Virus record (IMG/VR): IMGVR_UViG_3300043410_000484
Location: 1-22,794 of that record
DNA length: 22,794 bases
From: a virus
Strand: one strand, 5' to 3'
Below are positions 393 through 17,546 of this stretch, piece after piece. The translations under genes were made by a program, and so were the position numbers. The first letter of the stretch is position 1; each line of letters begins with the position of its first letter. The notes below the pieces were generated by a model. The model did no database searches. It worked only from the letters and a program-made list of their open reading frames with translations, and was not told where the DNA came from.

Positions 393-1079
393 ATGGGTAC
401 GGTAACCGCTCAAACCATTCTCAACAAAGCGGCAATTCAATTAACTGATATTGCCAATGTTCGTTGGACCCGTGCTGAATTACTCAGCTGGTTAAACGAT
501 GGTATGCGCCAAATCGTGCTCATGCAACCTAGCGGTTCATCAACTACCGTCTCGGTGAAGTTGGATGCTGGAACACGGCAAACAATTCCATCGGACGGCT
601 GGTTGTTGTTACAAATTTATCGAAATATGGGTACTTCTGGCACGACACCAGGTCGTGCCATTCGTATTATTTCTCGTGAAGTTTTGGATGGTTTTAATCC
701 AAGCTGGCATACTGAAATTCCAAAAGCTGAAGTAAAAAACTACATCTATGATGTACAAGATCAGCTTGCGTTTTATGTATACCCTCCCAACACTGGGACT
801 GGTTACATCGAGTTGAATTACTCAGCTCAACCAACGAACTTAACATCTGAATCACAGACGATTCCAATTTTTGATATCTTCCAGTCCGCACTGGTTGATT
901 ACATTTTGTTTCGCGCTTGTAGCAAAGACGCTGAGTACGCGCCCGGCCTTCAATTGGCGCAAGGATATTTGGCTACGTTTACTGCTTCTGTGCAAGGCAA
1001 GACTCAGTCTGAAGCGACCAACGATCCTACCAACGCTCTTGGCCAACGTAACGTTTCTATTCCAGGATCACAGACATGA
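393..1079 (+). CDS. Head-tail adaptor protein (DUF6682-like phage adaptor)
   Basis: A 228-residue protein resembling the adaptor proteins that form the ring beneath the portal of short-tailed phages. The N-terminal helices (residues about 4-45, with TILNKAAIQLTD and WTRAELLSWLNDGMRQIV) are typical of the family. A central beta region follows (about 50-150, including 'DQLAFYVYPPNTGTGYIELNY'-type strands), then C-terminal helices (about 160-205, FDIFQSALVDYILFRACSKDA). This helix-beta-helix order is the adaptor fold. It starts 8 bases after the preceding stop, with a weak AAGG site. The stop overlaps the next ATG by 4 bases (ATGA), implying coupled translation. Confidence 0.8.
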   Translation: MGTVTAQTILNKAAIQLTDIANVRWTRAELLSWLNDGMRQIVLMQPSGSSTTVSVKLDAGTRQTIPSDGWLLLQIYRNMGTSGTTPGRAIRIISREVLDGFNPSWHTEIPKAEVKNYIYDVQDQLAFYVYPPNTGTGYIELNYSAQPTNLTSESQTIPIFDIFQSALVDYILFRACSKDAEYAPGLQLAQGYLATFTASVQGKTQSEATNDPTNALGQRNVSIPGSQT

Positions 1080-1723
1080 GCGATGTATCTTACGAAGCAT
1101 TCTTGCCCGACGTCGTTCAATTTGTTCGGGACGTACCTGAGATTGTGGCTGTTCAAGCCATTCGTAATGCTGCCATTCAGTTTTGTGAAAAGACACGTGT
1201 CTTACAAACAGAACTTCAACCAATGGACATGACCGCAGAAGTTTCTGTGTATGGGTTTGAGCCTGACGTTGGATACAAAGTTGTCGACATCATGGAAGCT
1301 TGGTACGGCGATCAATTGTTGATTCCTAAAGCAGTTGAAGAGTTGACCCGCATTTACCGCACGTCCAATTGGAACGATTTGGACGGCAACCCTTATTACT
1401 ATTTCCGTAGCCGCACGCAAGAAATTACGCTGGTTCCAAAACCAAAAGTAACTGAAGCTGCAAAGCTAAAACTGCGTGTTGCAGTTGTGCCATCACGTTC
1501 TTCATCTGTAATTGACGAAGAAGTCTTTGAGCGTTACTACGAGATCATTACCTTGGGCGCACGTGCGCGTTTGTACGATACACCCAACCAGCCTTACTAC
1601 GAACCCAAATCTGCCCAGTTGTATTTGAAACGATTCAGCGACGGCATGAACGAAGTTCGTACTCGTGTAGCAAAAGGTTTGACCCGTGCTGCTGTTCAAA
1701 TTGAATTCCAAAGGTTTGTATGA
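1076..1723 (+). CDS. Second adaptor / head-tail connector-like structural protein
   Basis: A 215-residue protein that starts in an ATGA overlap with the adaptor, preceded by an AGGA ribosome site. It has the same broad plan as its neighbour. There is an N-terminal helical part (residues 3-45, 'VPEIVAVQAIRNAAIQFCEKT'), a central beta part (50-145, 'YRTSNWNDLDGNPYYYFRSR', 'ITLVPKPK'), and a C-terminal helical part (150-205, 'YYEIITLGARARLYDTPNQPYYEP'). The motif 'GA.aRLY..P..P...p..A..Y...F..gm' is common in small connector and tail-tubular-A-type proteins of podoviruses. Likely part of the channel between portal and nozzle; exact ring position is inference. Confidence 0.65.
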   Translation: MSDVSYEAFLPDVVQFVRDVPEIVAVQAIRNAAIQFCEKTRVLQTELQPMDMTAEVSVYGFEPDVGYKVVDIMEAWYGDQLLIPKAVEELTRIYRTSNWNDLDGNPYYYFRSRTQEITLVPKPKVTEAAKLKLRVAVVPSRSSSVIDEEVFERYYEIITLGARARLYDTPNQPYYEPKSAQLYLKRFSDGMNEVRTRVAKGLTRAAVQIEFQRFV

Positions 1724-2070
1724 CCGCCGCTGCATATGATTTTGTTATTGAACAAGGTGCAACGCTAGACAAGACATTTGTCTGGAAGGACAGCACTGGT
1801 ACTGTTATCAATTTGTCGGGCTACACTGCCCGTATGCAAATTAGGCAGACTGTTAGCTCAAGCACAATTTTGCTAGAGTTGACCACGCTTAATAACCGAA
1901 TCATTATCACGCCTGGACAGGGCAAGATTCAATTACTGGTAGCTGCTGCTGATACTGGCGCTATTACTTGGCAACGTGGGAAATACGACCTAGAATTGGT
2001 TTCTTCTACAGGCGTGGTGACACGTTTGCTGTATGGTGACGTAGAGGTTTCTAAAGAGGTTACTCGATGA
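1720..2070 (+). CDS. Small beta-sandwich structural protein, BppU N-terminal-like
   Basis: A 116-residue protein starting in an ATGA overlap, with AAAGG upstream. The sequence pattern 'QGATLDKTFVWKDSTG..inLSGYTArMqIR' followed by 'GKYDLELVSSTGVVTRLLYG' is characteristic of small beta proteins found next to fibre genes in many phages. They resemble the N-terminal domain of baseplate upper protein BppU. It sits directly before the collagen fibre genes, so it may be the docking piece that links fibres to the tail or neck. Function is inferred from family resemblance and position. Confidence 0.65.
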   Translation: MTAAAYDFVIEQGATLDKTFVWKDSTGTVINLSGYTARMQIRQTVSSSTILLELTTLNNRIIITPGQGKIQLLVAAADTGAITWQRGKYDLELVSSTGVVTRLLYGDVEVSKEVTR

Positions 2071-2309
2071 GCTACACGATTGTCGAAGAATTAGGATCGG
2101 ATACAAGTTTAATTGTTGAAGACACACCTCTTGCTCCTACAATCGTTGAAGTTGTCACGACGGGGCCACAGGGTCCAGTTGGGGCTACAGGTTCTGGTCT
2201 GGCAATTAGTCAAACTGTTCCAACGTACGCAGATTTACCTGCTACAGGTAGCCCCGGACAGGCAGTGTTTGTTGCCTCTACAGGCAAAATTTATATTTGG
2301 AGCGCATGA
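2067..2309 (+). CDS. Short fibre-base protein ending inside an interrupted fibre domain
   Basis: An 80-residue protein that starts in an ATGA overlap (AGAGG upstream). Residues 30-44 are a short collagen-like stretch ([13 protein letters not shown]). Residues 45-80 are the first part of a small domain ('[12 protein letters not shown].[16 protein letters not shown]') that ends abruptly at TGA 2307-2309. The same domain occurs whole near the start of the next gene, where it continues '[10 protein letters not shown]'. Here the equivalent continuation 'AWVDAG' is read in another frame immediately after the stop. So this is either a separate short protein coupled to the fibre, or the 5' part of a frameshifted or recoded fibre gene. 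Confidence 0.6.
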
Positions 2310-5300
2310 TGGCATGGGTTGATGCTGGTCCTCTTTCCGGTCCGACAGGCCCAACTGGTGCAGCAGGCACCGGTATTACCATCAAGGGCACTGTTCCTAC
2401 CATTGGTGATTTGCCAATTTCTGGCAACAGTCCCGGCGATACATACGTTGTAGCTTCAACAGGACACTTGTATGCGTGGAACGGCGTTGCATGGATTGAC
2501 GCTGGCCAAGTTACAGGTCCGACTGGTCCTACAGGTGCGCAGGGTGTTGTGGGCGATCACGGTCCTACTGGTCCTCAAGGTGTTCAAGGTATTCAGGGTA
2601 ACGTTGGTCCGACTGGTGCAGTTGGTCCTACAGGCGTACAAGGTATCCAAGGTGTCACAGGTCCAACAGGCTCTACAGGCGCGCAAGGTATTCAAGGCCC
2701 TACCGGTTCTACAGGAGCGCAGGGTATTCAAGGCGCTACCGGTCCTACAGGTGCGCAGGGTATTCAGGGTGTTACCGGACCCACCGGTCCTACAGGTGCC
2801 CAAGGTATCCAAGGCGTAACTGGCCCGACTGGTGCTCAAGGCATTCAGGGTGTTACCGGCCCTACAGGTTCTACTGGAGCTGCTGGTGCTAATGGTGATC
2901 GTTATAAAACTACTAGTACAACATTTTTAGCTGTTGCCACGGGCACAAATAAGACACTGACTATTGGTACAGGTCTGTCATATTCTGAAGCTCAGAATAT
3001 CATCATCAGCTACAACGGCGACACAACAACTCACCTTCATGGCCCTGTTGTTTCCTATAACAGTGTTACTGGTGTATTAGTATTTGATGTTGTTAGTGTC
3101 ACCGGTTCAGGTACTTATGCTAACTGGACAATCAATCTTGACGGTGCGCAAGGTGTTCAAGGACCAACAGGTCCTACGGGTGCAGCCTCTACTGTTGCTG
3201 GCCCTACCGGCGCATTAGGTCCTACAGGCCCAACCGGTGCGCAAGGTGTGGTTGGCCCCACTGGCGCAGCTTCTACTATTGCTGGTCCTACTGGACCCAC
3301 AGGCCCGACTGGTGCACAAGGTATTCAAGGTAATGTTGGTCCTACAGGTGATACTGGACCACAGGGTCCTCAAGGTATTCAGGGACCCACTGGACCACAA
3401 GGCATACAAGGCGTTACTGGACCTACTGGTCCTACGGGCGCGCAAGGTAATGTCGGCCCAACTGGTGTACAAGGCGTTCAAGGTATTCAGGGTGTTCAAG
3501 GTAATGTAGGCCCTACAGGCCCTACAGGTGCTACAGGCGCTGATTCAATTGTTGCTGGTCCTACTGGACCAACTGGTGCTACTGGTCCTGCTGTAACAGG
3601 CCCTGCCGGTCCTACGGGCGCGCCTGGTTTTGGTTACCCATTCTCAGCCATTACGTATTCGTTTACTGGTGATAATTCCACGACAACGTTTACGATTGGT
3701 TCAGGCTTTGTCACTGACAACATTCTTGTTTACTTAAACGGTGTAGCTCAAAAGCCCACAACAGACTTTACTGTTTCTGGTACTACCCTTAGTTTTGTTG
3801 TTGCCCCCGCAAGCGGTCATTCAATTGTTGTTCGTGCGCTTAAAGGTGACGGTCCTACAGGTCCTACAGGTCCTTCAGTTACTGGCCCCACCGGCCCCAC
3901 CGGCGCACAAGGCACACAAGGTAGTATTGGTCCAACAGGTCCTCAAGGTATTCAGGGCATACAGGGCAACCAAGGCAATGTTGGTCCCACAGGTCCAACA
4001 GGCTCTACTGGTGATACAGGTGTGCAAGGTCCAACAGGTCCTACAGGTGCTCAGGGTATTCAAGGCGTAGTTGGCCCTACTGGTCCAACTGGTGCGCAAG
4101 GTATTCAAGGCGTAGTTGGCCCCACTGGTGCACAAGGCGTACAAGGCCCAACCGGTCCCACAGGCGCACAAGGTACTATTGGTAACGTTGGACCTACGGG
4201 TCCCCAAGGTGTTCAGGGCGATCAAGGTTTGCAAGGATCGCAAGGTCCTACTGGACCTACTGGTAATACAGGTGGTGTTGGCCCTACTGGAAGTTCTGGT
4301 CCTACTGGAGCTACAGGCCCAACAGGGCCTACTGGCGCTGCTGGTTTAAGCGGTGACCGCTATCTAACTACTAGTACAACGTCGTTAACTGTTAGTAACG
4401 GCACAAAAACGCTGACTATTGGAACCGGCCTTGCCTATAGCGAAGCTCAAAATATTATTATCAGCTACAACGGCGATACTGTTACCCATATGCATGGGCC
4501 AGTTATTTCATACAATGGCTCTACTGGTGTTCTTGTTTTTGAATGCTCTAATAATAGTGGCTCAGGTACATACGCTGACTGGACAATCAATCTTGATGGC
4601 GCTCAAGGTGTAGCCGGTCCTACCGGACCTACAGGCCCAACAGGTGCTGATTCTTCGGTTCCTGGTCCACAAGGTCCAATTGGTAACACAGGTCCAACAG
4701 GCCCCACAGGTACACAAGGCGCAGCTGGCCCTACAGGCCCAACCGGTGTACAGGGCGTACAAGGTGTTCAAGGTGTCCAAGGCAATAGCGGCCCAACAGG
4801 CCCAACTGGTAGCACGGGATCAACTGGTTCTTCTGGCCCCACAGGTCCTACGGGTGCTGACTCAACTGTAGCCGGTCCTACCGGTCCAGCGGGTGCACAG
4901 GGAACTCAAGGTGTTGCTGGTCCTACCGGCCCCACAGGCTCAACTGGTTCAACTGGTTCTGCTGGTCCAACTGGTGCGCAAGGTGCCCAAGGCCCAACTG
5001 GTCCTACAGGAACACAAGGCGCTCAAGGTATTCAGGGTATCCAAGGTGTTCAAGGTGACGCTGGCCCAACAGGTCCAACTGGCGGTTCTGGAGTGGCTGG
5101 CCCAACAGGTCCTGCTGGCACACCTGCGACAACAACTTACACACGTACTAGCTTTACAGCTTCTGACGCCCAAGCGACTTTCACAGTCACTTATGTTGTT
5201 GGATACATTGAGGTTTATCAGAATGGCGTGTTCTTAAACGGCGTTGATTACACAGCGACCGATGGAACAAGCATTGTCTTGGCTACACCAGCAGCTGCTG

Positions 5301-5716
5301 GCGACATCATTGAGACAATCGCTTACACAGTAACCAATATTGCTGCGCCTACAGGCCCAACAGGGCCCGCCGGGTCTACTGGTTTAACTGGCCCAACTGG
5401 TCCGACTGGTGCAGCGTCAACAGTTGCCGGTCCCACTGGTCCAACAGGAAGTACGGGTACTACAGGCACTTCAGGACCAACTGGTCCGACTGGTGCAGCC
5501 GGGGCAACATTAACTGCAGCAACTCAGACCTTTACAGGTGACGGTACAACGACTGCGTTCACAATCACGACTGGCTATACAGTAGACAATTTGTTTGTGT
5601 TCCTGAACGGTGTCTGTATGGCTCCAACTTCTGATTACACAGTAACCGGTACTACGTTAACATTCACGTTCACACCACTATCTGGGCAAGCAATTGTTGT
5701 GCGCCAGCTGAAATAA
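2309..5716 (+). CDS. Collagen-like (Gly-Pro-Thr) tail fibre protein
   Basis: A 1135-residue protein dominated by Gly-x-y triplets, mostly GPT, GAQ, GIQ and GVQ, which should form long trimeric collagen-type rods. Rods are interrupted by folded beta domains. A small N-terminal domain sits at about 21-70. A domain of about 84 residues occurs twice (196-279 and 682-764). A third type occurs three times (about 445-512, 941-1010, 1068-1135), the last forming the C-terminal tip. I chose ATG 2309 because GGAG at 2299-2302 is 6 bases upstream; ATG 2306 or TTG 2297 are alternatives. The TGATG overlap couples it to the preceding gene. Likely a host-binding or particle-surface fibre. Thr in the third triplet position could be glycosylated. 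Confidence 0.85.
2894..3145 (+). repeat. Fibre beta domain, copy 1
   Basis: Encodes residues 196-279 of the collagen fibre, starting [10 protein letters not shown] and ending [11 protein letters not shown]. Copy 2 is at 4352-4600. The shared core includes '[20 protein letters not shown]' and a His-rich turn (THLHGPV here, THMHGPV in copy 2). Protein identity is high while third codon positions differ, so the duplication is not recent. Confidence 0.85.
4352..4600 (+). repeat. Fibre beta domain, copy 2
   Basis: Encodes residues 682-764 of the collagen fibre ([10 protein letters not shown] to [11 protein letters not shown]). It is the second copy of the domain at 2894-3145, and one residue shorter. 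Both copies follow a Gly-rich 'GAAG' linker and run straight back into collagen triplets, so the domain behaves as a module inserted into the rod. Confidence 0.85.
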
Positions 5717-5732: not shown

Positions 5733-6092
5733 ATGACAATCGCAGCAATATTCTCAAAATTCGCCAACAAGGTGAACTCGCTTGGCACAGCGTTCAACGA
5801 AACGGTGTATGCGATTACCGACGGTGCATCTGTAGATATCAACCCAGCAAACGGAACCATTCAAACATGGACGCTTGGAGCCAGCCGCACGCCTACGGCT
5901 ACTTCATTTCTGTCTGGGCAGAGCGTAACTTTAATGGTCGCAGGCACGACTAACACAATCACTTGGACCACAATGGCGGTAACATGGGTGGGTGGAACTG
6001 CACCTACGTTGCCAACAACAGGTAATGCAGTGATCGAATTGTGGAAAGTTAACTCAACAATCTACGGAGCTTCCGTTGGGAATGTAGCCTAA
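5733..6092 (+). CDS. Small beta-rich fibre-associated structural protein
   Basis: A 119-residue protein with a clear ribosome site (GAGGT, 8 bases before ATG). Its C-terminal half has the pattern 'sVTLMVAGTTNTITWTTMAVTWVGGTAPTL.ttGnaVIELWKVNSTIYGA.VG'. This is a widespread small domain in phage fibre loci, present alone or at fibre ends. The later gene at 11354 encodes a similar product. The stop codon overlaps the start of the giant LamG gene (TAATG). Probably a fibre-associated cap or connector; the biochemical role is not known to me. Confidence 0.7.
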   Translation: MTIAAIFSKFANKVNSLGTAFNETVYAITDGASVDINPANGTIQTWTLGASRTPTATSFLSGQSVTLMVAGTTNTITWTTMAVTWVGGTAPTLPTTGNAVIELWKVNSTIYGASVGNVA

Positions 6093-9000
6093 TGTTTTTG
6101 ACCCATGCCTTACGTGCCATCTACCGTGCTGCTGTTGTCACTGGCGACAGCTTGTGGAAATATGTAACTTTATTGTTAAGTGGTACGCCACCAGCAAACA
6201 CATTTGTTTCTGACAACAGTAATAACAGTTTGGTGATTACGCCAAATGGTGACGCACGTCCTAGTAACTTTAGCCCTTACACACCGGGTTATTACAGTAA
6301 TTATTTTGATGGTACTGGTGATTATTTAATTACTTCTAATATTGGTTCTATTACTGGAAATTTTACTATTGAATATTGGTATTACCCACAAGTACCCACT
6401 AATACATGGTACCCTTATGTTTTTGGTTCCAACACTCCTTGGATAACCGGTATAGGTATGTCTTACACTACGCAAACAACAGTAAGTGATGCAACTACTT
6501 TTGACTTATCTGTTGCTGGAGTTAGCGCTACTGTTAGTACTTTTGGAACAATAAAAAATAAATGGAATCATATTGCTGTGGTACGTTCAGGTAGTACTAT
6601 AACTGCTTATTTAAATGGAGTATCTGCCGCCACTCTAACTAATTCATCAACAATTCCTACTACAACGTTTTATATTGGTGGTACGGACGAAGGCGGAAGT
6701 TATGATAATCACGCAATGAAAGGTAATATTAGTAATTTTCGTATTGTCAAAGGCACAGCCTTATATACAGCATCCTTTACTCCATCTACAACCCCATTGA
6801 CCGCTGTCAGTGGTACGTCACTCTTAACCTGTCAATCCAACAGGCTAATCGACACCAGTCCAAACAACTTTGCCATCACAAAGAACGGCGACACGACTGT
6901 CAGTGGATTCCAGCCTTTTGCTACACCAACGTCTGCAAACATCAATACTTTGTACAGCACGTACTTTGACGGTACTGGTGATTATTTAACAGCTGCTAGT
7001 AATGCTGCTTTTGTAATGGGTACTAGTGATTGGACTATTGAAGGTTGGGTGTATGTCGTCAATGTAGGCACAAATTATCCTGTTATTTTGTCCAATCAAA
7101 CAGCATCTTTTACTACTGGTTCTATTTCATTAACTGCAAGCAATGTTTCATCAGGCCCTAGCAAATTTGTATTTAGTGCATACGATGTAAATGCTGGTTC
7201 TACTTTAGTATCATCTGCTACAAATTCTACTAACACATGGTACCATGTTGCAGTAGTTCGAAACGGTACTAATTTAACGATGTATCGAAATGGAACATCT
7301 GTTGCTACAACAACAATTTCTGCTGGAGTAACATTTAATTTTAGTAGTACTGGTTTGTGTATTGGTGGCGGTAACTGGGATGGGGCGCAATCATATTTCA
7401 CAGGAAACATTTCAAATTTCCGGATTGTAAAAGGCACAGCCCTTTATACAGCCAACTTTACACCGCCTACAGCCGATCTGACTGCAATCAGCGGTACATC
7501 TTTGCTGACTTGCCAGTCTTCTACGACCCGAGACAACTCAACCAACGCATTTGCTATTACCAGCAACGGTGATGCACGTCCTATTCCCGTCAGCCCTTTC
7601 ACTCAAACAACGACTGCGATTAATACAACGTATCTGGGTTCTGCTTATTTTGACGGTACTGGTGATTACTTAGTTGGTCCAACTTCTAATGCAAATTTAT
7701 TAGTAGGTACTGGCGACTTTACAATTGAATACTGGGCTTATAAAACAACATCAGCAGCATTAGGAACTGTTGTTTCATTTGGCTCTGGTACAGGTAACTT
7801 ACGACATTTCATTGACGGCGTTACACCCTCATTGTGGAATGGCGCTTCTGCTATTGGCAACGGAAACACAATTACTATAAATACATGGACACATATTGTC
7901 CTTCAGCGAAGTGGTACAACAATTCGTTTTTACACTAATGGGGTTTCATCTACTCCAATAACCAGTGCGTCAAATTTTAGCGCCGGAACAATAAATATTG
8001 GCGGTGAAGGTGCGTCTAATTCATTCCCCGGATATATTACTAATTTCCGTTTTATCAGAGGTACGGCTTTATATTCTGCCAACTTTGATCCCCCAGCACA
8101 GCCATTGACTGCGGTAACAAACACACAACTGTTGGCATGCCAAACAAATCAGCCTGCGACAAACAAAATGTTTGTTGATAACAGCGGCAGCAACCTTCCA
8201 ATCACTCAAGCCGGTAACACAACCCAAGGCACGTTCAGCCCTTACAGTGCAAACTGGTCGAACTACTTTGACGGTACTGGTGATTATTTACAAATTCCAG
8301 ATAATGCCGCTTTTGTAGTTGGTACAGGTGATTTTACTATTGAAGCATGGATATACCCAACCCAAGTTGCGGCATCAGAAGCGCCTATATTTAAGTTACA
8401 CAGTACAGGTAGCATAATCGAGTTACGCCAAAATACTAACAAATTGGATTGCCATTTAGCGCAAGTAGATAGTTCAGTAACAGTATCGACAGGTACTGTT
8501 GCAATGGCAGTGAACACTTGGAACCATGTCGCTTTTGTTAGAACTGGAACCACTACTTATACTTTTGTAAATGGTGTATTAGACCAAACAAAAACATCAC
8601 AAACACAAAATTTAACTACTACAGTAACAACAAAAAGAATTGCGGCAAATCAAACTGCGGCATTTTTCTTCACTGGTTATATTAGTAATTTCCGATTTGT
8701 AAAAGGCACCGCTCTCTACACAGCTGCATTCACACCTTCTACAACCCCGTTTACAGCGACCAGTAGCACATCAGTACTGACTTGCCAATCACCTTCACTA
8801 ATAGACAACAGCCCCAATGCTCTAGCCATTACAAAAGCCGGTGATGTCAGTGTTCAACGCTTTAGCCCATTCAGTCCTATTATCCAGACACCTACTACGT
8901 ACAGCACGTACTTTGACGGCACTGGTGATTATTTAACCGCAACTGGCAGTGCAGCATTTACATTGGGTACCGGTGATTTCACAATTGAATGTTGGTTTTA

Positions 9001-11344
9001 CACTGCTGTTGGTACAAACAATGCAATGTTCCAACTCTCCAACACAGCGGGCGGGTTCAACACAACATACACCAACACAATTGCAATTGGGTTGTTGGCG
9101 GGAAAAATAAATTTGTATGGTGTTGCCGGAACTGGTATCACAAGTACAGGCTCATCCTATGCTACATCGACATGGACTCATGTTGCTTTGGTTCGCAGTA
9201 GCGGTGTCACAAAACTTTATATAAATGGTGTGCTTGACACAACAGTAGGAACTGCGGGTTCTATTACTGACACAACAAGTTACACAATGCAATACGTTGT
9301 GGTTGGTGGCTATTACAGCACAGCGTATCTTTGGAATGGATATGTTTCAAACTTGCGTGTTGTCAAAGGCACTGCTGTTTACACTGCGGCATTTACCCCG
9401 CCTACAACGCCCCTAACGGCAATTACCAATACATCACTATTGACTTGCCAATCAGCCACGCACATAGACAATAGCTCAAACGCATTCACGTTGACACAAA
9501 ACGGTGACGCTGTCCCTCGTCAGTTCAACCCATTTGGTTTTACAAACACGACAACGGGTACAGCTTACACGCCTGCGCTGTATGGTGGCTCAGCATACTT
9601 TGACGGCACTGGTGACTATATTACTGCGCCGACTAATGCAGCGGCATTTAGCTTTGCTACAGGTGACTTTACAGCCGAGATGCAGCTTTATCCGACAGCA
9701 TTTGCCAGCTATAAATCTTTGTGGGGGTGCAGTTCTGGAGCAGCATCATCTACAGGATTCCATACAGGTTTGAACGCAAGCGGCAACGTGTTTATTTACA
9801 GCGCAAGTGCGTTTAAAGTTACCACATCAAATGCAATGAACTTGAACGCGTGGAACCATGTAGCGTTTGTTCGTAACGGCACAGCGCTTAATATTTATAT
9901 CAATGGTGTTTTGGGTGGTACATGGACGCTGACAACTCAAACGTTCACAGATAGCGCTGGCTGGTTTGGCGCAGCTCCCGGTTTAGCTAGTGAATATTAC
10001 ACTGGGTATTTGAACGACTTGAAAATTACTAAAGGCACAGCCCTTTACAAAGCCAGTTTTGTACCGCCACTTGCACCATTAACAGCTACAGCAGGTACTT
10101 CACTTTTGCTCAACATGGACAAAGGCGGCGTGGCAGACAGCAGCCGTTCAAACGATTTAGAGACTGTTGGTGATGCAAAGATCAATTACGAGACACCATA
10201 CGCTGGGTCTTACTACAGTAACTACTTTGACGGTACTGGTGATTATTTAGAAGCAGCGTCAAATGCAGCATTTGCTTTGCCGGGCGATTTTACTTTTGAG
10301 CTTTGGTTTAGATCAAACAACACTGGAGCAACTAGTCAATGGTGTGAAGTTCCAGTTAGTAATGGAATACAAATATATTACAGCGGTACTCAAATTTTTG
10401 TTTCTGCTTATGGTGTAAGTGCTTTAATCACATATACATACACTATGCCTCTTGGGGTGTGGACACATTTAGCAGTAGTTCGTAGTGGTACGGGAACAAG
10501 TAATCTGGTACTGTATATAAATGGTGTTTCAGTAGCGACTGCTACAAGTACTTTATCGTTTGCACAAGGCGCGTTTCGAATTGGCGGAACAAGTTACTAT
10601 TTCAACGGAAACATTTCAAATGCTCGTTTGGTCAAAGGTACAGCTGTATATACATCTGCCTTTACACCTTCAACTACACCTCTGACCGCAATCAGTGGTA
10701 CGTCACTCTTAACCTGTCAATCCAAATCGTTTGTGGATAACAGCACAAACGCGTTCACTATTACAAGGAATGGCGACACTGCGGTCAAATCGTTTAACCC
10801 ATTCCAGAAAAACACGTACAGCAGTATGTATTTTGACGGTACGGGTGACTACCTAACTTCTGCTAACAATTTAATCAGCGATTTTGGTACCGGTGACTTT
10901 ACTGTCGAATTCTGGATGAACGCCAGTGCCGCAGGCACATATGTTTGCGTTGTAGGCACACAAGCTGTCTCCGGAAATACAACTGCCGGTATGTGGCGTA
11001 TCAGTAACAGATTAAATTCTGTTAATGGTATTTATTTTAACTACAGTACTGGTAGTGCTTTTACAGATATAACATTCAGCACAACCAATTACAACGATAA
11101 CGCATGGCATCACGTAGTTGCCTGCCGAACCAGTAACTCGTTAAAAATGTATGTAGACGGAGTGTCTGTTGGTACCGCTACAACAGTTTCTCAAAGTTTA
11201 ACTTCTGGTAAAAATTTGCAGGTTGGATACCAAGCGCAAGACCTTGTTTACTACACAGGTTATATTGCAGACCTACGGATTACCAAGTCTGCTCGTTACT
11301 CAGCCAACTTCACACCGCCAACAGCACCACTGCCTACAGCATAA
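6092..11344 (+). CDS. Giant adhesin with eight LamG-like (concanavalin A-like) domains
   Basis: A 1750-residue protein built from eight tandem LamG/Laminin_G_3-type beta-sandwich domains. Each begins with YFDGTGDYL (residues 71, 291, 519, 725, 940, 1169, 1378, 1580; copy 6 has YI). Each continues 'f.iE.W.y', 'WnHvA.vR.g....yiNGv' and ends 'g.isN.R.vKGTALYtA.FtP'. Linkers of about 50 residues ('sLLTCQS...DNS.NAfaIt.nGDa...FsPF') join them. LamG domains commonly bind glycans or proteins, so this is a probable receptor-binding fibre or surface adhesin. There is no signal peptide, as expected for a virion protein. It starts in a TAATG overlap with its small neighbour. Confidence 0.88.
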   Translation: MFLTHALRAIYRAAVVTGDSLWKYVTLLLSGTPPANTFVSDNSNNSLVITPNGDARPSNFSPYTPGYYSNYFDGTGDYLITSNIGSITGNFTIEYWYYPQVPTNTWYPYVFGSNTPWITGIGMSYTTQTTVSDATTFDLSVAGVSATVSTFGTIKNKWNHIAVVRSGSTITAYLNGVSAATLTNSSTIPTTTFYIGGTDEGGSYDNHAMKGNISNFRIVKGTALYTASFTPSTTPLTAVSGTSLLTCQSNRLIDTSPNNFAITKNGDTTVSGFQPFATPTSANINTLYSTYFDGTGDYLTAASNAAFVMGTSDWTIEGWVYVVNVGTNYPVILSNQTASFTTGSISLTASNVSSGPSKFVFSAYDVNAGSTLVSSATNSTNTWYHVAVVRNGTNLTMYRNGTSVATTTISAGVTFNFSSTGLCIGGGNWDGAQSYFTGNISNFRIVKGTALYTANFTPPTADLTAISGTSLLTCQSSTTRDNSTNAFAITSNGDARPIPVSPFTQTTTAINTTYLGSAYFDGTGDYLVGPTSNANLLVGTGDFTIEYWAYKTTSAALGTVVSFGSGTGNLRHFIDGVTPSLWNGASAIGNGNTITINTWTHIVLQRSGTTIRFYTNGVSSTPITSASNFSAGTINIGGEGASNSFPGYITNFRFIRGTALYSANFDPPAQPLTAVTNTQLLACQTNQPATNKMFVDNSGSNLPITQAGNTTQGTFSPYSANWSNYFDGTGDYLQIPDNAAFVVGTGDFTIEAWIYPTQVAASEAPIFKLHSTGSIIELRQNTNKLDCHLAQVDSSVTVSTGTVAMAVNTWNHVAFVRTGTTTYTFVNGVLDQTKTSQTQNLTTTVTTKRIAANQTAAFFFTGYISNFRFVKGTALYTAAFTPSTTPFTATSSTSVLTCQSPSLIDNSPNALAITKAGDVSVQRFSPFSPIIQTPTTYSTYFDGTGDYLTATGSAAFTLGTGDFTIECWFYTAVGTNNAMFQLSNTAGGFNTTYTNTIAIGLLAGKINLYGVAGTGITSTGSSYATSTWTHVALVRSSGVTKLYINGVLDTTVGTAGSITDTTSYTMQYVVVGGYYSTAYLWNGYVSNLRVVKGTAVYTAAFTPPTTPLTAITNTSLLTCQSATHIDNSSNAFTLTQNGDAVPRQFNPFGFTNTTTGTAYTPALYGGSAYFDGTGDYITAPTNAAAFSFATGDFTAEMQLYPTAFASYKSLWGCSSGAASSTGFHTGLNASGNVFIYSASAFKVTTSNAMNLNAWNHVAFVRNGTALNIYINGVLGGTWTLTTQTFTDSAGWFGAAPGLASEYYTGYLNDLKITKGTALYKASFVPPLAPLTATAGTSLLLNMDKGGVADSSRSNDLETVGDAKINYETPYAGSYYSNYFDGTGDYLEAASNAAFALPGDFTFELWFRSNNTGATSQWCEVPVSNGIQIYYSGTQIFVSAYGVSALITYTYTMPLGVWTHLAVVRSGTGTSNLVLYINGVSVATATSTLSFAQGAFRIGGTSYYFNGNISNARLVKGTAVYTSAFTPSTTPLTAISGTSLLTCQSKSFVDNSTNAFTITRNGDTAVKSFNPFQKNTYSSMYFDGTGDYLTSANNLISDFGTGDFTVEFWMNASAAGTYVCVVGTQAVSGNTTAGMWRISNRLNSVNGIYFNYSTGSAFTDITFSTTNYNDNAWHHVVACRTSNSLKMYVDGVSVGTATTVSQSLTSGKNLQVGYQAQDLVYYTGYIADLRITKSARYSANFTPPTAPLPTA
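6807..6840 (+). repeat. 34-base exact repeat, copy 1 (linker after LamG 1)
   Basis: Begins TCAGTGGTACGTCACTCTTA and ends GTCAATCCAA. It is identical to 10692-10725, encoding SGTSLLTCQS in both linkers. Other linkers encode nearly the same peptide with different codons, so this identity points to recent exchange rather than selection on the protein. Confidence 0.9.
10692..10725 (+). repeat. 34-base exact repeat, copy 2 (linker after LamG 7)
   Basis: Exact copy of 6807-6840, 3.9 kb downstream in the same frame of the LamG gene. Sequence identity breaks down on both sides. Confidence 0.9.
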
Positions 11345-13494: not shown

Positions 13495-14559
13495 ATGAAA
13501 ATTGCCGTATACGCCATCAGTAAAAACGAGGAACAATTCGTACAACGTTTCTGTGAGTCAGCCAAAGATGCCGATCTTATTCTTATCGCTGATACTGGTT
13601 CTACAGACAATACTGCTAGTCTGGCCCGTTCTCTGGGTGCTACAGTGTATGACATCTCCGTTAGACCTTGGCGTTTCGACAAGGCGCGTGACACTGCCCT
13701 TAATTTAATCCCTGCCGACTTTGACGTGTGTATCTCTCTTGACTTGGACGAAGTCATGGAGCCGGGCTGGAGACAAGAGATTGAGCGTGTATGGACAGAG
13801 CAGACAACACGCCTGCGCTACAAGTTTGACTGGGGCTGTGGTATCAGTTTCTTCTACGAGAAGATTCATCACCGCACTGGATACCACTGGCACCACCCAG
13901 TTCATGAGTACCCCCGTGCTGACAACCGCACCAAGGAAGTCTACGCACACACAGACATGCTGCTGGTAAGCCATCACCCAGACAATAACAAGTCTCGTGG
14001 CCAGTACATGCCGCTCCTAGAGTTGGCTGTGGCAGAAGACCCACGCTGCCCACGTAATGCGTTTTACCATGCCCGTGAGTTGACGTTCTATTCCCGCTGG
14101 CAAGAAGCCATTACTGCGCTTGAGAAGTACCTTGCCATGCCTGAGGCTAACTGGCAGAACGAGCGTTGCTACGCCATGCGCTTATTGTCTAAGTCACACG
14201 ATGAACTTGGCCATGTTGAAGAAGCCATGAAGTGGGCACGCCTTGCTGTTGCCGAGGCCCCCGGTACTCGTGAGCCATGGGTTGAATTGTCTATGCAGTG
14301 CTACCGCCGTAGCATGTGGGCGGAGTCTTACGCTGCTGCGCTGTCTGCGCTCGAGATCAAAGATAAAGCACTCGTGTATACGATGGACCCGTCGGTGTGG
14401 ACTGAGAAGCCATACGACCTTGCCAGCATTGCTGCTTGGAATCTTGGCCTCAAAGATTCTGCTATCGAGTTTTGCAAAAAAGCTCTAGAATTCAATCCTA
14501 CGGACAGCAGGCTTATTGCTAACCTTGCGTCTATGAACCCTACCGTGGAGTCGACATGA
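13495..14559 (+). CDS. Family 2 glycosyltransferase with C-terminal TPR-like repeats
   Basis: A 354-residue protein (AAAGGAT ribosome site). The N-terminal GT-A domain shows the nucleotide-binding start 'IAVYAISKNEEQFV', the GT2 motif A32-DTGSTDNT-40, and the metal-binding D83-L-D85-E86. Residues about 180-345 are helical with TPR-like spacing ('AFYHARELTFYSRWQEAITA', 'SHDELGHVEEAMKWARLAV', 'AWNLGLKDSAIEFCKKAL'). GT2-TPR fusions are known among protein and peptide glycosyltransferases, such as the SunS type, where TPRs mediate assembly. It lies in the fibre locus, so its acceptor may be a virion protein or a host surface glycan. No membrane segment, so it should act in the cytoplasm. Confidence 0.88.
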   Translation: MKIAVYAISKNEEQFVQRFCESAKDADLILIADTGSTDNTASLARSLGATVYDISVRPWRFDKARDTALNLIPADFDVCISLDLDEVMEPGWRQEIERVWTEQTTRLRYKFDWGCGISFFYEKIHHRTGYHWHHPVHEYPRADNRTKEVYAHTDMLLVSHHPDNNKSRGQYMPLLELAVAEDPRCPRNAFYHARELTFYSRWQEAITALEKYLAMPEANWQNERCYAMRLLSKSHDELGHVEEAMKWARLAVAEAPGTREPWVELSMQCYRRSMWAESYAAALSALEIKDKALVYTMDPSVWTEKPYDLASIAAWNLGLKDSAIEFCKKALEFNPTDSRLIANLASMNPTVEST

Positions 14560-16597: not shown

Positions 16598-17079
16598 AAC
16601 TTGAAATTAAAACAGTAGATGAATTAGTCCTACTGATCCAAGTGCTGGCTTGGGCGTTTGTAGTGTTTGTAGTCATGATGGTGTTTGGCGGGACGGTTAT
16701 GTCCATGCTGTACTCGGTCATCTTTGTGACGCAGCCTATTAAGTCTATGGCCCCCATAGATATGGCGTTCACCAAAATGCTTAACGACGTGATGCTGCTG
16801 ATGACTGGCTCGATCACTACGTTGATTGGTATGTTTGCAATTAACAAAGCAGCCAAGGCTGTGGCAGAAAAGTTGGCACCTTCAGTGCTGCCGCCTACGA
16901 CACCTACAAGCACGCCTGCACCCACTTCTCCAATGTCCAACTACAACTGGATGGGATATACAAACCCTGAGCTGGATGAAACATGGGTGCCACCACCCCC
17001 ACCCACAACGCCGCCAGATCATTTAGAAGACGATCATGAAAGAGCGCAGACTGCGCTTGCACGGAAAGAGGCTGAGTGA
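16594..17079 (+). CDS. Two-helix membrane protein, holin candidate
   Basis: A 161-residue protein starting in an ATGA overlap, GGAG upstream. Two hydrophobic segments are visible, at about residues 12-45 (Val/Met-rich, 'AFVVFVVMMVFGGTVMSMLY') and 64-84 ('DVMLLMTGSITTLIGMFAIN'). A Pro/Thr-rich tail (97-145, including PPPPPTTPP) and a charged end follow. Two membrane helices, immediate placement before Rz/Rz1 and endolysin, and a hydrophilic C-terminus all fit a holin. It is longer than typical class II holins because of the tail. Confidence 0.65.
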   Translation: MKLEIKTVDELVLLIQVLAWAFVVFVVMMVFGGTVMSMLYSVIFVTQPIKSMAPIDMAFTKMLNDVMLLMTGSITTLIGMFAINKAAKAVAEKLAPSVLPPTTPTSTPAPTSPMSNYNWMGYTNPELDETWVPPPPPTTPPDHLEDDHERAQTALARKEAE

Positions 17080-17546
17080 TGTTTGGCATCCCACTTCCAT
17101 GGTTAATCATCGGTGTCGCAGTTGCACTGTTTGGATCGTACCGTGGCGGATACCACTATGGCTGGACAGACCGTGACGCAGAAATGCAGATCGAGATTGC
17201 CAAGAAGAATGACGAAGCCCGTGAACTTGAAAAGAACATGTCTTCCAAGTTGGCGGACAAAGAAACTGAACTGAGAAAGGCGCAAGATGACATTGTTAAA
17301 AAGCAGTCTGCTATGCGTGAGCTTGCTCGGACTGGCCAGCTGCGGCTCCCCACCGCAAGTTGCGTACAAGCCGCCCCAAGTACCCCCGCTCCCGCAGGAG
17401 ATAAGCAAGATGGAACCGACGCTGAGCGACAGACTATTGAAGCTCTTATCGACCTCGTCGCAGAAGGAGACAAAGCCATCACCAAGCTCAATGCCTGCGT
17501 CGACTCCTACAACCAAGTAAGGGATTTGATAAATGGTAACCGCTAG
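17079..17546 (+). CDS. Rz: i-spanin (Rz-like)
   Basis: 155 residues from ATG 17079 (TGATG overlap with the holin candidate; GAGG upstream). An N-terminal membrane anchor spans residues about 1-20 (PLPWLIIGVAVALFGSY). A periplasmic coiled coil follows, about 28-85 ('DRDAEMQIEIAKKNDEAREL', 'LADKETELRKAQDDIVKK'). This is the classic inner-membrane spanin layout. The gene completely contains the Rz1 reading frame in the +1 frame, a hallmark of nested spanin pairs. With Rz1 it links inner and outer membranes and fuses them in the last step of lysis. Its end overlaps the endolysin start by 14 bases. Confidence 0.88.
   Translation: MFGIPLPWLIIGVAVALFGSYRGGYHYGWTDRDAEMQIEIAKKNDEARELEKNMSSKLADKETELRKAQDDIVKKQSAMRELARTGQLRLPTASCVQAAPSTPAPAGDKQDGTDAERQTIEALIDLVAEGDKAITKLNACVDSYNQVRDLINGNR
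17287..17520 (+). CDS. Rz1: o-spanin lipoprotein (Rz1-like), nested inside Rz
   Basis: A 77-residue frame wholly inside Rz, read +1, with its own AAAGG ribosome site 7 bases before ATG. The signal sequence ends in lipobox L16-A-S-C19. The mature part starts Pro-rich (GSPPQVAYKPPQVPPLPQ), as in Rz1 outer-membrane lipoproteins. Nesting, lipobox and Pro-rich start together make the call firm even though sequence similarity between Rz1 proteins is low. Easily missed by automatic annotation because of the full overlap. Confidence 0.88.
   Translation: MTLLKSSLLCVSLLGLASCGSPPQVAYKPPQVPPLPQEISKMEPTLSDRLLKLLSTSSQKETKPSPSSMPASTPTTK

Follow-up and report, generated by a model that had tools for sequence, protein, structure and literature searches.

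The locus analysed here raises a simple question: what is a gene boundary doing in the middle of a fibre domain? The window (IMG/VR virus record IMGVR_UViG_3300043410_000484, the whole 22,794 nt stretch of a freshwater phage) encodes a short protein, chain A, followed in another frame by a long collagen-like protein, chain B, with a small domain straddling the boundary between them (Table 1). Chain A ends in IYIWSA at a TGA stop (2307-2309), and its match to the profile of the domain, covering profile positions 2-35, halts two residues short of that stop. The DLP and Y-x-W motifs of strands 1-3 are present in chain A according to this profile; strand 4, carrying the W-x-[DN]-x-G motif, is absent from it and is encoded in chain B. 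An alternative start for chain B, in the same frame as the overlapping ATG, lies at 2306-2308, and counted from there the protein has 1136 residues; its match to the Pfam Collagen family extends over 2309-2880 (E 2.2e-19). Residues 32-79 of chain A are 56% identical to the downstream copy of the domain (E 2.3e-13), so the two copies are related beyond chance. Direct reading of the sequence and its open reading frames thus confirms the original prediction, in coordinates as well as frames, that a domain is cut at a stop/start overlap within 2215-2350, the upstream copy being broken and the downstream copy whole.

Table 1. Features of the window at and around the split fibre domain (nt positions)
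Feature	Position	Strand	Basis
Two tandem proteins, Pfam SU10 adaptor family	393-1079, 1076-1723		Pfam match
116-aa protein, PHROG 1084 (unknown function)	1720-2070	+	PHROGs, E 3.8e-30
Chain A, 80 aa, presumed anchor/adaptor, ending with three quarters of the small domain	2067-2309	+	ORF
Half-domain of chain A (strands 1-3 plus a short helix, up to IYIWSA)	2202-2306	+	Profile match, AlphaFold
GGAG, Shine-Dalgarno-like, from Trp and Ser codons (TGG-AGC)	2299-2302	+	Sequence
Stop/start overlap TGATG (chain A stop, chain B ATG 2309)	2307-2311	+	Sequence
Chain B, long collagen-like fibre protein	2309-5716	+	ORF, -1 frame relative to chain A
AWVDAG at the chain B N-terminus, the strand 4 that the chain A domain lacks	2312-2329	+	Matches strand 4 of intact copy (residues 40-45)
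Intact second copy of the domain inside chain B	2375-2521	+	AlphaFold, pLDDT 94.5

Because SU10-type adaptors and a protein matching PHROGs 1084 and 3304 lie nearby, we take this part of the window to be a tail region. The match of the 116-residue protein to PHROG 3304, 'L-shaped tail fiber protein assembly', is the weaker of the two (E 1.2e-08), and tblastn places covering at least 80% of this protein were found in 54 phage records. Several other features of the window were noted in passing, most of them by eye. Chain B carries a second small fibre domain (GDRYxTTSTTxL) twice, at about 2899-3150 and 4357-4605, and a 1750-residue protein at 6092-11344 consists of LamG-like repeats of the form YFDGTGDYL...VKGTALYT..FTPP. 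A glycosyltransferase with TPR repeats is encoded in the tail region at 13495-14559, and another locus, L129, has a look-alike (MKICVYAISKNE, 8307-9371) close to its split fibre. Further along, an open reading frame at 17287-17520 with a lipoprotein-like start (LLGLASCGS) is nested, in another frame, inside a longer one at 17076-17546, an arrangement reminiscent of Rz/Rz1 spanins.

Where in the fold does the boundary fall? AlphaFold models the intact copy from a 32-row alignment with a mean pLDDT of 94.5, as strands at residues 2-7, 22-26, 31-35 and 40-45 and a short helix; on this model the cut lies in the turn at 36-39, between the third and fourth strands. Chain A by itself is modelled poorly overall (mean pLDDT 56, 8-row alignment), with the first three strands predicted in its last 35 residues (47-51, 66-69 and 74-78, pLDDT about 71-82) and a 3-residue helix at 54-56. 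In the 32-row alignment of intact copies (A4) the strand 4 Trp never varies; it is nearly invariant in a 35-row one, and invariant again in the chain B starts of alignment A2. Foldseek returned no match to the intact-domain model in the PDB at E <= 0.001. The VIA fold comparison against the PDB placed Geobacillus virus E2 ORF18 first, at Z 6.9, where values below 8 may mean no more than a common arrangement, and aligned the trimerization domains of collagens XV and XVIII over 47 residues at Z 5.0-5.8 (rmsd about 2.4-2.5), a likeness of folds that we regard as suggestive only. In BFVD the model has 33 matches at E <= 0.001, and the fold is common in predicted structures of collagen-like phage fibres. 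A solved relative sought by sequence was rejected, as only designed propeller repeats matched and each single repeat was insignificant.

Is the interruption an accident of one genome? In favour of a recent mutation or an assembly error in a single fused gene, fused relatives do occur in other anchor groups. The relatives of the window itself tell against such an accident. Viral contigs scanned with chain A yielded 21 loci, of which 19 hold the junction (L003-L021; L022 and L023 are distant), and the split is kept in every one of the 19, with a chain A of 80-81 residues that stops within the domain. The overlap exists in two versions, TGATG in eight relatives (GGAGCGCATGATGGCATGG, as in the window) and TAATG in eleven (GGAGTAAYACATAATG), and chain B starts at the overlapping ATG as M-x-W-[VI]-[DN]-[AS]-G (MAW, MPW or MVW). 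Across nine distinct haplotypes, pN/pS is 0.19, 0.19 and 0.18 in three segments of chain A, and because it is this low in each of them chain A is, on these ratios, a maintained gene under purifying selection. The comparison of relatives that the original prediction had proposed as a check therefore rules out a sequencing error or lesion. The uninterrupted frame that it had named as a sign of such an error does exist, but only in other anchor groups; the cut is fixed in whole anchor groups, which argues for gene fission rather than an error in the data, and the same cut recurs on other anchor genes. We thus find a recent mutation or assembly error scarcely credible.

The two versions of the junction do not follow overall relatedness within the family. 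The most diverged chain A (78%; L021, 807-1046) has the junction sequence of the window, yet a closer relative (L010, 95%) carries the other version, which suggests that the junction module has been exchanged. Among annotated phages, a DNA search with the junction region gave no match; tblastn with chain A reached 221 records, those examined for splits being L030, L031, L135 and L136, so that a split like that of the window may occur among the rest. Alignment A1 reached no further among distant relatives than the single query did.

How might chain B be translated? The GGAG within chain A precedes ATG 2309 by 6 nt and ATG 2306 by 3 nt, in keeping with the earlier view that it is well placed for the former. 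A motif of this kind, formed by the Trp-Ser codons, stands at the same place, after the Trp of strand 3, in 15 of 22 distinct split junctions as against 4 of 59 intact copies; these counts are support rather than proof, because the rows are related and the DGV-type group (7 of the 22) has no GGAG, GAGG or AGGA motif. All 19 relatives have the overlapping stop and start, TGATG or TAATG, that is looked for in translational coupling, and reinitiation at the overlap would be the simplest reading. Programmed -1 ribosomal frameshifting at the overlap, by which some fused A-B chain would be made, has in its favour the -1 frame of the second half and, in the window, the 55 nt upstream of the stop over which the ATG frame stays open. 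At the same time, the 60 nt that lead up to the stop in the window contain no X-XXY-YYZ slip heptamer, in line with what had been remarked from the first, and neither does any of the 22 distinct junctions, where XXXY stretches are present but unconserved. In 7 of these 22 a stop 4 nt upstream closes the ATG frame; the eleven relatives with TAATG (L010-L020) have a stop of the downstream frame just before the overlap, right after the GGAG; and the equivalent genes of three actinophages, described below, do not overlap. With no slip heptamer in 22 junctions and a downstream-frame stop in L010-L020, we consider frameshifting very improbable.

The same cut is found behind other anchor genes. A first DNA pattern, requiring both overlap and strand, matched 103 stretches, those outside split loci being mostly chance matches, and revealed the cut on other anchors in L049, L062, L068, L044, L063, L066, L099 and L129; in L062 and L068 it follows a long protein that by eye resembles a gpJ-like tail tip. 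A second pattern, conditioned only on the start of chain B, matched 36 stretches. Collagen lies downstream in 24 of these (the 19 of the window family together with L049, L062, L068, L258 and L268), and a half-domain lies upstream in 24 of the 24; ten of the 36 have neither half-domain nor collagen, and in L272 and L274 the half-domain is present, with 11-13 residues of chain B before the end of the contig. The second pattern thus adds the anchor backgrounds of L258, L268, L272 and L274. Because both scans demand TRATG and M-x-W, the place and manner of the cut in the other groups are partly preselected, and other arrangements would escape. In L268, around position 6119, the domain is present twice in one chain, first whole and then, where the chain ends, in split form. 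Searches by tblastn of annotated phages with two other split chain A proteins, and by blastn with an L049 stretch, gave no match, and a scan of the bacterial and archaeal genomes available found no split of the exact pattern, its sole match (L277) being a chance one with four in-frame residues upstream.

A profile search over 258 loci recovered 60 distinct whole and 18 distinct split copies of the domain, or 60 and 22 when later loci are included, and allows the two forms to be compared. Fused counterparts are plentiful in some groups: anchor, whole domain and collagen are uninterrupted in 14 of the 14 listed loci among L147-L161, the closest relatives of the L044 group, and they form one fused gene in L217 and L220, which have the L062-type anchor. 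An isolate, Methylophilaceae phage P19250A, likewise has a fused gene with an intact domain. In many other loci with the L062-type anchor, the domain was not seen in the stretch inspected. The spacing from Trp codon to Trp codon across the turn is 14 nt in the window, and among the distinct split junctions 14 nt in 7 of 22 and 17 nt in 15 of 22; in distinct intact copies it is 12 nt in 53 of 60, 15 nt in two and 18 nt in five. A tree of the N-terminal half of all 60 intact and 22 split copies requires four changes of label, against a mean of 19.6 and a minimum of 13 in 300 shuffles, and suggests more than one split event, the number being uncertain because the sequences recombine and the tree has only about 35 columns. 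Since certain junction versions are common to different anchor groups (TTTGGAGCGCATGATGG in the window and L062, SNT/MPW in L010 and L258), some of the splits that share a version may be a single event spread by recombination, and the DGV group (L044 and others) looks like a separate split. From the sequences, we read this history as one in which a fused gene was split at the hairpin turn, apparently on at least two occasions, with some subsequent spread by exchange.

A parallel exists in actinophages, with a different small domain. Nocardia phages NBR1 and KYD2 and Corynebacterium phage EmiRose (L030, L275 and L276) each have three consecutive tail genes linked by two such joints. At each joint the upstream gene closes with GDxYxDTxTGxxYxL(x)-stop, or with a sequence close to it, and the gene after it opens with MAW. 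Four of the six starts lead on to G-x-[IL]-x-GP, the exceptions being the last start in NBR1 and in KYD2 (MAWDKVA). The layout fits separate chains, because the genes do not overlap. The intact form of this small domain was matched by eye only, in L214.

Overall, we believe that the conserved gene boundary inside the fibre domain likely reflects a fused gene that was split at a turn and whose halves are coupled in translation and rejoined by strand complementation. On this view, the break in the ancestral fused gene would have come in the turn between the last two strands of the domain, through a change that added 2 or 5 nt to the usual length of the turn and created the overlapping TGATG or TAATG. 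Ribosomes would end chain A and start chain B at the overlapping ATG, aided by the GGAG within chain A. Chain A, contributing the anchor and three strands, and chain B, contributing the fourth strand and the collagen, would then build the domain jointly, strand 4 of each chain B filling the open edge of one chain A half-domain. The joint would link the fibre to the anchor, and so to the tail, and align three B chains for the collagen helix. Three A and three B chains would probably be arranged around the fibre axis. Should the domain trimerize, three A half-domains would each receive their fourth strand from one of three B chains. Of the three explanations originally put forward for the junction, then, two chains sharing one domain is the one we favour, frameshifting being unlikely and mutation or assembly error rejected.

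Another account of the split is that chains A and B are simply separate and the domain is not rebuilt: the edge of the half-domain would be closed otherwise, the start of chain B would be an inherited remnant, and the gain, if any, would be separate control of the amounts of anchor and fibre. The beginning of chain B is compatible with this, in that codons 2-7 have a pN/pS of 0.83 (six codons, few changes) and residue 2 varies between A, P and V; over codons 2-12 the ratio is 0.29 (ten distinct haplotypes). Nonetheless, the strand Trp, the hydrophobic V/I and the Gly are kept in all chain B starts compared, and the V/I, D/N and A/S changes of the chain B strand are also seen in intact copies. 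A neutral or regulatory split would also have to contend with the co-occurrence of half-domain and strand in all 24 collagen matches, and with the cutting of the same turn on several anchors. We judge it unlikely, and hold that in this phage and its relatives the anchor and the long collagen-like fibre protein are probably joined because each supplies what the fold of the other lacks.

Such a joint would differ in several respects from known systems. In donor-strand complementation, as in pili and TasA, a strand from a neighbouring subunit completes a beta fold; here, unlike there, complementation would act once, between two different fibre chains derived from one domain, and would build no polymer. 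The intact fibre domain of phage P19250A and of Pectobacterium phage phiTE is the same 49-position domain between collagen stretches, with the difference that its fourth strand is in the same chain. The N-terminal domain of a Klebsiella phage K1 lyase is a trimer that its authors, in the part of the paper available to us, liken to a collagen XVIII domain (PMC8822698). In this domain and in those of collagen XV and XVIII each subunit is built by one chain, unlike the split domain, and we found no sequence relation between them. The nearest known idea in the accessible text comes from KP32-type Klebsiella phages, where a conserved N-terminal peptide docks one receptor-binding protein on an anchor fibre protein (PMC13082707). 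Here too a short N-terminal peptide of one fibre protein would attach to an anchor; the peptide, however, is the missing strand of a domain that is whole elsewhere, whereas the KP32 branching domain is, as far as that text goes, T4 gp10-like. In the portions of the open-licence literature available to us, we found no description of fibre domains split as in chains A and B.

Splits at the hairpin turn may represent a recurrent click joint between successive phage fibre proteins, a broader proposal to which we give an even chance. Such a joint would have arisen more than once, would move between anchors, would have its actinophage parallel in another small domain, and would set the order of assembly, 1:1 synthesis and the exchange of fibres. 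If so, a collagen-like fibre can be fastened to its anchor without a separate adaptor domain, and the two halves would offer protein engineering a natural strand-complementation pair. A pairing rule for fibre genes would also follow, in which one gene ends at strand 3 and the next starts with M-x-W and strand 4, and the same rule would correct annotations in which such pairs resemble broken genes. One could then also test whether formation of the collagen helix in phage collagens has to wait until their trimerization domains are complete on the anchor.
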